Notes under the pieces: model-generated
Databases searched by the model: none
What the model was told of the DNA's origin: nothing
Seen by the model: the letters and a program-made list of their open reading frames with translations, nothing else
Shown: positions 58,051-60,377 of the stretch, piece after piece
Layout: each line of letters starts with the position of its first letter
Position numbering within the stretch: the stretch's first letter is position 1
NCBI RefSeq assembly: GCF_014196635.1
Contig: NZ_JACIEB010000001.1
Span: forward strand, 1 to 64,000
Source: Sphingobium fontiphilum
GTDB lineage: Bacteria > Pseudomonadota > Alphaproteobacteria > Sphingomonadales > Sphingomonadaceae
Length of the DNA: 64,000 nt
Direction of reading: 5' to 3'
Program-made: the position numbers and the translations under genes

Positions 58051-58230
58051 CTTTTCCTTGCACTCCGTGATCGTTAAAGGGGCCTGCGTTTGTCCCGGAA
58101 TGGTCCGGGGCGCGGGTCTGTTGGGGGGTAGTGCCCAAATCGCAGGGGCGCCTCAACGGCAATTGTGTCTCAAAGTGTAACGGCTTCGGAAAATGCGCTA
58201 TTCCGGGGCGTGACGGTCAGAGGATGGAAG
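58051..58230. other. Divergent promoter region between the efflux operon and fabD
   Basis: 180 bases between two oppositely transcribed operons; both promoters must lie here. No recognisable operator was found. A frame that would extend fabD upstream to 58165 lacks conservation. Confidence 0.5.
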
Positions 58231-59166
58231 ATGAGGGCATTTCTGTTTCCGGGGCAAGGCAGCCAGTCGGTGGGCATGGGCAAGGCGCTGGCCGAAGCCA
58301 GTCCGGCCGCGAAGGAATTGTTCCAGGAGGTCGACGATGCGCTGAACCAGCATCTCTTCCGCATCATGATGGAGGGGCCGGAAAACGACCTGACCCTGAC
58401 TGAAAACGCCCAGCCCGCGATTATGGCGAACGCGCTCGCCACCCTGCGGGTGATGCAGAGGGAAGGCGGCTTTTCGCTGGCCGACAAGGGCGATTATGTC
58501 GCCGGGCACAGCCTTGGCGAATATAGCGCCTTGTGCGCGGCCGAAGCGTTCGACATTGCCACCACCGCGCGCCTTTTGAAGTTGCGCGGGCAGGCGATGC
58601 AGGCCGCCGTGCCGGTGGGCATGGGCGCGATGGCCGCCCTTCTGGGCGCGGACATCGAAAAGGCGCAGGCGCTGGCCGACGCCGCCGCGCAGGGCGAAGT
58701 GTGCACCGTCGCCAACGACAATGATCCGACCCAGGTTGTCATTTCCGGCCATCGGGGTGCGATCGAACGCGCGGTCGCCATGGTGAAGGACCATGGCATC
58801 AAGCGCGGCGTGCTGTTGCCCGTCTCCGCGCCCTTTCACTGTCCGCTGATGCAGCCCGCCGCCGACGCCATGGCCGATGCGCTGGGCAAGGCGGCGATCA
58901 GCGCGCCATTGTTGCCGGTCTACGCCAATGTGCTGGCCGCGCCGGTTGCCGACCCGGAAGAGATCAAGGCGCGGCTGGTGGAGCAGGTGACGGGCCGGGT
59001 GCGCTGGCGCGAATCCGTCGCCGCCATGTGGGACGCGGGCGTCACCGATTTCGTCGAACTGGGCGGCAAGGTGCTGGGCCCCATGGTCAAGCGCATCGCG
59101 CCGGATGCCAGGGTGACCAGCATCGTGACGATGGACGACATAGAGGCCGCGCTGGGGGCAATTTGA
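58231..59166 (+). CDS. fabD: Malonyl-CoA:ACP transacylase
   Basis: 311 residues. RAFLFPGQGSQSVGMGKALA opens the protein, the active serine Ser94 is in AGHSLGEYSALCA, and SAPFHCPLMQPA holds the catalytic His. It moves malonyl from CoA to ACP for chain elongation. The ATG at 58231 has AGGATGGAAG directly upstream. The usual partner fabG follows after an inserted GxxExxY cassette. Confidence 0.96.
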   Translation: MRAFLFPGQGSQSVGMGKALAEASPAAKELFQEVDDALNQHLFRIMMEGPENDLTLTENAQPAIMANALATLRVMQREGGFSLADKGDYVAGHSLGEYSALCAAEAFDIATTARLLKLRGQAMQAAVPVGMGAMAALLGADIEKAQALADAAAQGEVCTVANDNDPTQVVISGHRGAIERAVAMVKDHGIKRGVLLPVSAPFHCPLMQPAADAMADALGKAAISAPLLPVYANVLAAPVADPEEIKARLVEQVTGRVRWRESVAAMWDAGVTDFVELGGKVLGPMVKRIAPDARVTSIVTMDDIEAALGAI

Positions 59167-59170
59167 GTTT

Positions 59171-59199
59171 TTCGCGCAGAGGCGCAGAGGACGCGGAGA
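59171..59199 (+). repeat. Left inverted repeat of the GxxExxY cassette
   Basis: TTCGCGCAGAGGCGCAGAGG followed by ACGCGGAGA. It is matched in inverted orientation by 59585-59613 at 25 of 29 positions. It contains a short tandem GCGCAGAG repeat and starts five bases after the fabD stop codon. Confidence 0.85.
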
Positions 59200-59203
59200 C
59201 AAT

Positions 59204-59616
59204 GTGAGGCCGATTGACGACATCACGCGGGATGTGATCGGGGTTGCGATGAACATTCTCGCGATCTGGGTCCCGGACTGCTGGAGAGCGTATATGAAGC
59301 CATATTGTTGGGGAAGCTCACCCGTCTGGGTTATAAGGTCGACCGGCAAATGCCGATCGACATTCAATTTGAGGATGTGCATTTCCAGGCTGCATTTCGT
59401 GTCGACATGTTGGTTGACGACCGACTGGTGCTTGAGATCAAGTCAGTCGATCAGTTGCATAAGGTTCATGCCAAGCAACTGTTGACCTATTTGCGGCTGA
59501 TGAAACAGCCTGTTGGCCTGATCCTCAACTTTGGCGGCGAAACGATCAAGGAAGGCATTCGTCGTCTCGTCAATAGTCACACCGACTCTGCGCCCTCTGC
59601 GCCTTTGCGCGAATAA
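59204..59616 (+). pseudogene. GxxExxY family protein, frameshifted
   Basis: The GTG frame at 59204 gives RPIDDITRDVIGVAMNI, then shifts near 59258. Adding one base (CTC to CATC) restores GPGLLESVYEAILLGKL, which carries the family's GxxExxY motif. The second part runs TRLGYKVDRQMPIDIQFED, FRVDMLVDDRLVLEIKSVDQ and HAKQLLTYLRLMKQPVGLIL, typical of this PD-(D/E)xK-like nuclease-fold family. The last residues (HTDSAPSAPLRE) are encoded by the right inverted repeat. The shift could be a sequencing error, but as given the gene is broken. The function of the family is not established. Confidence 0.85.
59585..59613 (-). repeat. Right inverted repeat of the GxxExxY cassette
   Basis: On the minus strand it reads TTCGCGCAAAGGCGCAGAGG then GCGCAGAGT, matching the left copy at 25 of 29 bases. 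The GxxExxY coding end lies within it. fabG starts 23 bases beyond. Confidence 0.85.
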
Positions 59617-59636
59617 AAAACAACGGAGTAAAAGAC

Positions 59637-60377
59637 ATGTTCGACCTGACAGGCATGACCGCGCTGGTGACCGGCGCTTCGGGGGGGCTGGGTTCCTCCA
59701 TCGCGCGGGCGCTGGCGGCGCAGGGGGCGACGCTGGCGCTGTCGGGCAGCAATGAGGAAAAGCTCAAGGCCTTTGCCGCCGAATTGGGGGGCGATCACAA
59801 GACGGTGGTCTGTAACCTGTCCGACGCGGCTTCGGTTGACGCGCTGGTGCCGCAGGCGGTGGAAGCCCTGGGCGGCAAGATCGACATCCTCGTCAACAAT
59901 GCCGGCATCACCCGCGACAACCTGATCATGCGGATGAAGGATGACGAATGGAGCCAGGTGATCCAAGTCAATCTGGAGGCGACATTCCGCCTGTGCCGCG
60001 CGGCGGCCAAGCCGATGATGAAGGCGCGTTTCGGCCGGATCATCTCCATCACCTCGGTCGTGGGCGTCACCGGCAATCCGGGGCAGGCCAATTATTGCGC
60101 GTCTAAGGCTGGCATCATCGGCATGTCGAAGTCGCTCGGGCAGGAACTGGCGAGCCGCGGCATCACCGTGAACTGCGTCGCCCCCGGCTTCATGCGGTCG
60201 GCCATGACCGACGCGCTCAACGATGCGCAGAAGTCGACGATCCTGGCGAAGATTCCGGCGGGCGACCTGGGCAGCGGCGACGATATCGGCGCGGCGGTCG
60301 TCTATCTGGCGAGCAGGGAAGCGGGCTATGTCACCGGCCAGACGCTGCATGTGAATGGCGGCATGGCGATGATCTGA
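59637..60377 (+). CDS. fabG: 3-oxoacyl-ACP reductase
   Basis: 246 residues of the short-chain dehydrogenase family. The NADPH loop is ALVTGASGGLGSSIARAL, with NNAGITRDNLIMRMKDDEW as the FabG-specific segment. Catalytic Ser is in ITSVVGVTGNPGQANY and Tyr/Lys in NYCASKAG. It reduces 3-ketoacyl-ACP in fatty-acid elongation. Its normal neighbour fabD is separated by the inserted cassette. Confidence 0.96.
   Translation: MFDLTGMTALVTGASGGLGSSIARALAAQGATLALSGSNEEKLKAFAAELGGDHKTVVCNLSDAASVDALVPQAVEALGGKIDILVNNAGITRDNLIMRMKDDEWSQVIQVNLEATFRLCRAAAKPMMKARFGRIISITSVVGVTGNPGQANYCASKAGIIGMSKSLGQELASRGITVNCVAPGFMRSAMTDALNDAQKSTILAKIPAGDLGSGDDIGAAVVYLASREAGYVTGQTLHVNGGMAMI

Follow-up and report, generated by a model that had tools for sequence, protein, structure and literature searches.

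Most of the GxxExxY genes examined are flanked by matched inverted arms, the left and right arms of a locus vary together, and palindromes with the same ends occur without the gene. These results suggest that GxxExxY genes belong to one system with palindromes built of iterons, in which the nuclease gene is sessile and its cognate palindromes spread in trans; we hold this reading to be somewhat better than an even bet.

The locus lies in a window of 64,000 nucleotides, the whole stretch of Sphingobium fontiphilum DNA that was analysed. Its left neighbour is fabD, coding for ACP S-malonyltransferase (58231..59166, plus strand; PF00698, E 8.4e-35; start codon picked by eye inside the ORF at 58165-59166), and its right neighbour is fabG, coding for 3-oxoacyl-ACP reductase (59637..60377, plus strand; an ORF matching PF13561, E 7.1e-62). 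The GxxExxY gene (59204..59616, plus strand) matches TIGR04256 at 59257-59571 with an E of 1.2e-31 (110.8 bits, cut-off 35) and belongs to PF13366 (PDDEXK_3) in Pfam; the TIGR04256 profile has no other match in the whole 3.4-Mb genome. The nuclease domain is in frame from 59257, and the N-terminal start of the family lies in another frame, from 59204. The gene is thus frameshifted near 59257, and the preliminary description had rightly called it broken. The left arm (59168..59207, plus strand; repeat finder and shuffles) and the right arm (59577..59616, minus strand) are 40 nt each, 83% complementary and separated by 369 nt, as measured by the repeat finder. Their 29-bp cores, at 59171-59199 and 59585-59613, are identical at 25 of 29 positions, with 4 mismatches when compared by eye, as had been claimed for the repeats around this gene. 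The locus (L063) scored 51 for its inverted repeat, and none of 60 mononucleotide shuffles scored higher than 24. Since the fabD stop ends at 59166, the left core begins five bases past it, and since the GxxExxY stop codon (59614-59616) abuts the right core, the right arm overlaps the gene and provides its last codons; both placements agree with the preliminary description. The repeat unit given there, GCGCAGAG, stands as one form of the unit, but each arm actually consists of three tandem units spaced 8-9 bp (in the left arm at 59175, 59183 and 59192, by eye). A tRNA gene is also present in the window, at 749-819 on the minus strand. When the window and loci L070, L083, L349 and L002 were searched for known RNA families (Rfam, gathering scores), the only match was one window tRNA.

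The preliminary description had raised the question of whether such repeats accompany other GxxExxY genes, and they do, both within and outside the Sphingomonadaceae. By profile search, GxxExxY is found above the cut-off in 39 of 199 Sphingomonadaceae genomes. Fifty-seven loci were read in this family, 56 others and the window, leaving out genome G017 (24 bits, below the cut-off). In 53 of the 57 the inverted repeat scored above all 60 shuffles; with 100 single-base shuffles, applied to 56 loci (the 57 minus L033, which has a short flank), 53 of 56 passed, and the direct-orientation control was passed by 2 of 56. A further 80 named loci were picked by similarity, 26 of them labelled sphingomonads, four of which (L135, L136, L147 and L165) are genes among the 57. 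The clean non-sphingomonad set comprises 52 named loci (without L124 and L143), reduced to 47 by dropping five with short flanks. Of these, 41 pass the inverted-repeat test, across 13 labelled phyla; taking the labels as given, the phyla with arm-flanked GxxExxY genes include Verrucomicrobiota, Thermodesulfobacteriota, Planctomycetota, Cyanobacteriota, Bacteroidota and Chloroflexota. Arms are absent by the shuffle test in the other six of the 47, three of which are labelled Bacteroidota. The direct-orientation test was also passed by 21 of the 47, because several loci sit within crowded repeat arrays. When the named loci were pooled (six of 80 dropped for short flanks), 68 of 74 passed, with inward pairs in 58/74 and outward pairs in 8/74, counts that are not independent of the 57 because sphingomonads are included and four genes are shared. 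For a phylum-wide sample, loci were chosen by their profile match, whatever their likeness to the window: GxxExxY is present in 64 of 398 sampled Pseudomonadota genomes, and 40 loci, one per genome, were taken among the stronger full-length matches from 40 of the 57 gene-bearing genomes outside the Sphingomonadaceae, 29 of the 40 belonging to the family coded f38. The inverted-repeat test was passed by 33 of these 40. Family f38 accounts for 45 of the 64 gene-bearing Pseudomonadota genomes, often with several matches each, some of them fragments. Three of the four plasmid-borne copies examined passed as well, one of them in Bacteroides finegoldii.

The arms have a common anatomy, with ~3 tandem units of 8-10 bp each. 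In the Sphingomonadaceae and in the clean set from other phyla the arm consensus is TCaCGCnnAGrCGCnnAGrCGCnnAG, with nn variable, and the GTAG tag is absent from it; in other Pseudomonadota the unit spacing is 8-10 bp, as in ACCGCAGAGTACGCAGAGTTCCGCAGAG. Unit pairs that point inward in both flanks were found in 47 of 56 Sphingomonadaceae loci versus none of 56 pointing outward, in 35 versus 7 of the 47 named non-sphingomonad loci, and in 23 versus 1 of the 40 loci from other Pseudomonadota. At 600-850 bp from the gene, two-sided inward pairs were seen in 0 of 55 and 0 of 69 loci. The two arms of one locus resemble each other more than mispaired arms do: in the Sphingomonadaceae the identity within a locus was 0.908 against 0.631 for mispaired arms (z 16.5, n=47), and outside the family 0.829 against 0.725 (z 6.7, n=26). 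In the Sphingomonadaceae this left-right likeness is lost 9-16 bases beyond the arm (z 1.1). The shuffles, the orientation controls and this co-variation rule out chance as the source of the arms. A transcription terminator was ruled out too: at the gene some 370 nt separate the arms, whose sequence is common across phyla.

GxxExxY proteins appear to be nucleases. All 12 members scanned match PF13366 and no other Pfam domain. PD-(D/E)XK homing endonucleases and RecB-, Cas4- and Hjc-like nucleases share the motif order E, D, ExK, QxxxY, and in an alignment of 52 of the 57 loci (L033, L054, L056, L062 and L063 left out) these columns are kept in 52/52; the wider set H, GPG, E, Y, D, ExK, QxxxY and NF is kept in 52/52 or 51/52 sequences. 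In the AlphaFold2 prediction the best of five models reached a mean pLDDT of 93.5, the second 93.3 and the other three 61-63. Its top match among solved structures was SSO0001, which we take to be a Cas4 (Z 9.3, rmsd 4.7, 101 residues); restriction-endonuclease-like folds were also among the matches, and an Hjc-type Holliday junction resolvase was a fold match only, at Z 6.7, and scores below about 8 could arise by chance. Foldseek by itself returned nothing up to an E of 0.001, and a search by sequence for solved structures of GxxExxY gave none. As judged by its motifs and modelled fold, the ~130-aa GxxExxY protein is a member of the PD-(D/E)XK nuclease superfamily. Cas4 carries iron-sulphur cysteines; GxxExxY differs from it in that no conserved cysteine was found in the 12- and 52-sequence alignments. 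The dN/dS ratio, calculated from the same 52 loci, was 0.05-0.46 with a median of 0.30 over 18 pairs with dS <1.2; since the pairs listed are near saturation, this hints only roughly at selection to maintain the gene. A known defence system was rejected, with the PADLOC RTasPDDEXK profile matching only 4 of 12 members (best E 5.6e-6). RTasPDDEXK is a nuclease linked to defence reverse transcriptases, and its match to these four proteins is weak. Among PHROGs, phrog_1706 was matched by 1 of 12 members (E 2.8e-4). A phage or plasmid origin was likewise rejected: with one query protein, 0 of 50,697 phage records and 8 of 72,556 plasmid records were hit, and 0 of 108 candidate viral stretches were confirmed.

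The arms of GxxExxY genes also occur back to back with no gene between them, as palindromes of ~60-200 bp that number dozens in some genomes. A strict three-unit pattern gave 493 matches in 48 of 199 Sphingomonadaceae genomes, gene arms counted, and the reversed pattern 22. Pattern-rich genomes are G066, with 80 matches, and G108, with 76; among congeners, G136, G191 and G023 have zero and G169 has one. From the first 30 matches in G108, 20 elements were extracted. Seventeen of them are 61-76 bp long, with the arms inward as at the gene; a short loop is common within subfamilies (by eye), and all 20 are predicted to fold strongly as RNA, at -18 to -66 kcal/mol. The arm pairs of G066 are spaced 56-169 bp from start to start, and among the ten palindromes listed several are nested one within another; at loci L083, L349, L354 and L361 of this genome the nesting looks, by eye, like shells with differing arm subtypes. 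G108 and G066 together have 45 neighbouring plus/minus pairs less than 3 kb apart. Forty-one of these are spaced 30-169 bp, start to start, and are therefore too close to hold a gene; the remaining four are spaced 417-426 bp, and all four enclose GxxExxY, which is the only gene observed between strict-pattern arm pairs in the two genomes. In some gene-less palindromes (L002, 1488-1557; also in G186 and G157) the arms are inside out relative to the gene unit and resemble a right-end/left-end junction.

Around 12 of the 20 G108 palindromes a further inverted repeat, concentric with the first, lies no more than 90 bp away; most of these outer repeats are CGTC-type REP hairpins. Over a similar span such a repeat was seen at 1 of 57 gene loci. 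Palindrome and outer repeat may travel together in this genome. Palindromes lying between inverted CGTC-type REP hairpins are seen at L070, L208, L214, L219, L225 and other loci, and at L205 one REP pair is apparently unoccupied (by eye). A G108 palindrome is missing, along with its surrounding REP hairpins, at the matching place in G169 (L231). In the window genome one gene-less palindrome was found, at sufC-sufD, with its arms in the opposite orientation, and it is missing in the congener G196. The window copy of GxxExxY is probably a dead, decayed member of the palindrome system in its own genome. The alignments of L232, L228 and G144 yielded no clean empty sites, these relatives being too diverged for precise insertion boundaries, and no transposition event was seen among the genomes compared, none of which are near-identical.

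The gene itself recurs at a few shared sites. In 20 of the 57 Sphingomonadaceae loci fabG lies directly downstream, always in the same direction, and fabD was detected upstream in 16 of the 20; a further 10 of 57 precede a gene whose product starts MDNLTHS, and 6 of 57 lie at a third site, with one direction per site. On a midpoint-rooted tree of 53 proteins (L033, L056, L062 and L063 left out), the site label needs 8 changes versus 27.3 when shuffled. All 19 placeable fabG-site copies fall in one 27-member clade (support 99/98) that also holds 8 copies from other sites; six of these, the third-site copies, form one clade (99/95) inside it, beside the 19 and two others. A few copies from other sites are nested inside site clades, and a single origin of the fabG-site copies gave an AU p of 0.052, so that formal rejection fails. 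The sequences suggest a long vertical residence of GxxExxY with rare relocation. The idea that a cassette had recently moved in between fabD and fabG is not borne out: with 20 of 57 copies at fabG, in one direction and, where placeable, in one clade, the gene appears to be mainly an old resident that has been repeatedly lost.

The site is nevertheless not fixed. Among 69 fabD-fabG junctions at least 23 are 30 bp or shorter, and five hold GxxExxY (these are among the 57 loci); 18 yielded no length by script, and many of these look like an overlapping stop and start. The junction of the congener G196 is a clean 19 bp with no insert, so that the empty sites which the preliminary description proposed to look for do exist. 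Two junctions, L104 (in genome G155) and L237, carry arm scars without a gene that by eye resemble degraded ends and not intact palindromes. No pair of orthologous sites came to light in which one genome has the intact palindrome and the other has the gene. At L099, L257, L256 and L272 the junction holds other extra sequence of ~590-620 bp, and it may therefore be a general insertion hot spot.

These observations bear on two readings in which the gene moves. The preliminary description had seen a simple mobile or homing-like unit. In a homing process the nuclease would cut a gene-less palindrome and the gene would be copied in by gap repair, which would make the arms the two halves of a recognition site. 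Such a process would fit a gene placed between two arms that are found back to back elsewhere, the matching of the arms within each locus, and the conserved sites with gene loss. We nevertheless consider it rather unlikely: the junctions gave no orthologous pair of palindrome and gene, the scars at L104 and L237 look degraded, the position of the gene is mostly inherited, and the crowds of gene-less palindromes would be left unexplained. The interpretation in the preliminary description is partly supported; homing may occur, but the gene-less palindromes speak more for an arrangement like that of RAYT/REPIN. It is also unlikely that the gene unit is an autonomous cut-and-paste transposon with inverted repeats, of which the gene-less palindromes would be internal-deletion derivatives (MITEs). 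The inverted termini, the single gene, the miniature forms that share the termini and the fact that some copies from other sites fall inside site clades of the tree are what this would predict. However, no target-site duplication was found at arm-flanked loci, where the insertions are old and the boundaries uncertain, and the low number of site changes on the tree, the PF13366 domain as sole Pfam match, and the phage, plasmid and viral counts given above all argue against a transposon.

If the gene and the palindromes belong to one system, as we favour, their numbers should be considered together. Of the 39 gene-bearing Sphingomonadaceae genomes, 15 exceed two matches per gene by three or more, as do 11 of the 160 genomes that lack the gene (odds ratio 8.5, p 3e-6). 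In the 22 genera with both kinds of genome, the gene-bearing ones were richer in 12, poorer in 3 and tied in 7 (p 0.018). The subtypes also tend to agree. Outer ends of the type GCTCGC/GCACGC were present in 18 of 30 matches in G066 versus 2 of 30 in G108, and the same type is found at the G066 gene copy L023; TCACGC/TCGCGC ends were present in 27 of 30 matches in G108 versus 9 of 30 in G066, and are found at the G108 copies L007 and L037. In a permutation test of the similarity between palindromes and the arms of their own gene in six genomes, made with partial match lists (the first 30 for G066 and G108) and leaving out G116 and G138, 2 of 720 permutations, one of them the true pairing, gave a similarity as high as that observed; in this test the palindromes of G066, G186, G193 and G079 were not closest to the arms of their own gene. 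In the phylum-wide sample, any match was present in 12 of 64 gene-bearing versus 20 of 334 other genomes (p 0.002, gene arms counted in), and G349 has 38 matches with no detected GxxExxY gene; because the phylum-wide counts include the gene arms and genomes like G349 exist, the dosage link rests on one family, the Sphingomonadaceae. G069, G155, G094 and G072 have 11-19 strict repeats each and no detected GxxExxY, and these repeats were perhaps left after gene loss.

Another way to read the numbers is that a RAYT or IS transposase spreads the palindromes and that GxxExxY is cargo caught between two arms. A Y1 transposase gene (PF01797) is present in the palindrome-rich genomes G108, G122, G186 and G027, and in the window genome, and the CGTC-type REPs that often surround the G108 palindromes would suit this reading. 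We consider it quite unlikely, however, since a profile search found no PF01797 match in the palindrome-rich genomes G066 (with its 80 matches), G171, G104, G168, G193 and G079, so that a RAYT is not needed for palindromes. Moreover, GxxExxY is the sole gene observed within strict-pattern arm pairs of G108 and G066, and arms enclose GxxExxY in many phyla. A RAYT may still act on the palindromes in some genomes; the search covered the Y1 class only. It is very unlikely that nothing moves and that GxxExxY trims or resolves hairpins or cruciforms, or regulates itself via its arms, with palindromes derived from replication slippage or an old spread: the strong predicted folding of the G108 palindromes, the Hjc-type resolvases among the fold matches and the long residence of the gene would agree with this, but the palindromes lie at many unrelated loci, in subfamilies with a common loop (by eye), and in two cases are missing at the matching place in a relative.

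We therefore return to a sessile gene with palindromes spreading in trans. A gene between inverted repeats, co-evolution of gene and repeats and a repeat number tied to the gene form a RAYT/REP-like pattern, and here the pattern surrounds an unrelated enzyme; on these grounds the GxxExxY nuclease is proposed as the palindrome spreader. Most likely it would recognise the arms, probably once the palindrome has folded out into a hairpin or cruciform, and would cut there. The palindrome would then be copied to new places by replication or repair, and on rare occasions the gene unit as a whole would be copied too. The gene would stay mostly stationary and vertically inherited as the palindromes spread in trans. 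The pairing of gene and palindromes is observed; binding, cleavage, copying, hairpin targeting and mobilisation by GxxExxY are what we infer.

We give about an even chance to the broader proposal that GxxExxY proteins serve as dedicated enzymes for a very widespread and hitherto undescribed class of mobile palindrome, which would use no transposase, recombinase or reverse transcriptase and of which the enzyme's own gene would be the longest family member. To our knowledge, no nuclease of the PD-(D/E)XK type drives dispersed elements on its own. The enzyme sets the system apart from the repeat-spreading systems considered, though its logic resembles RAYT/REPIN. If the proposal is true, a family whose annotation is just a motif would gain a function, a family found in 39/199 Sphingomonadaceae and 64/398 Pseudomonadota genomes, a class of intergenic palindromes would be explained, and a nuclease type would be added to those that drive dispersed elements. 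A search of the open-access literature for the repeat strings or for a pairing of nuclease and repeat, with most subscription papers and bioRxiv outside its range, returned nothing relevant among the titles listed.

The nearest comparisons are with four kinds of system. MITEs are short gene-less elements that share their termini with a longer, gene-bearing parent insertion sequence, and the GxxExxY system resembles TIR transposons and their MITEs in having terminal inverted repeats common to gene-bearing and gene-less copies; it differs in that the gene is largely sessile and codes for no transposase domain (PF13366 only, in 12/12), and no target-site duplication was seen at its old loci with their uncertain boundaries. 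With PD-(D/E)XK homing endonucleases it shares the fold class, the motif order and the position of a nuclease gene between the halves of a palindrome. It differs from them in that the arms are multi-copy palindromes; the arms do equal palindrome halves, but no orthologous pair of palindrome and gene was found.

In open PMC texts the word GxxExxY turns up in two papers; a passage of one of them, PMC8934634, mentions it as a side remark. TIRYT elements, as described in the accessible part of PMC3733652, resemble the present system in their long inverted repeats around a gene and in their moderately abundant gene-less copies, but they code for a tyrosine transposase and not for a PD-(D/E)XK nuclease. 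The same part of that source describes CGTC REPs as lacking a dedicated transposase, and repeats of the CGTC type, named after it, adjoin the G108 palindromes; a word search of PMC3733652 found neither GxxExxY nor CACGC.

The closest likeness is to RAYT/REPIN. There, according to the sections of PMC2817692 available, the gene lies between inverted repeats, the repeats co-evolve with it and repeat number is tied to the gene; the cognate repeats are dispersed, and their doublets fold into hairpins (PMC2817692 and PMC3116915, each in part). GxxExxY is likewise flanked by inverted cognate repeats whose number is tied to the gene, the latter in the Sphingomonadaceae only. In contrast, the RAYT of these sources is an IS200/IS605-like tyrosine (HUH) enzyme and GxxExxY a PD-(D/E)XK nuclease by motif and model, and no Y1 (HUH) transposase lies between the arms, where the 12 proteins scanned match PF13366 only. 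The repeats differ as well: REPs are short stem-loops, most of them GTAG-tagged in the same portions of PMC2817692 and PMC3116915, whereas GxxExxY arms are tandem 8-10 bp units with no GTAG. If the broader proposal is true, GxxExxY and its palindromes would parallel RAYT/REPIN without being homologous to it and would make up a chemically new class of dispersed element. They would also provide a second, independent case in which to ask why bacteria keep a sessile nuclease together with a population of palindromes, a question that RAYT and REPIN already raise.
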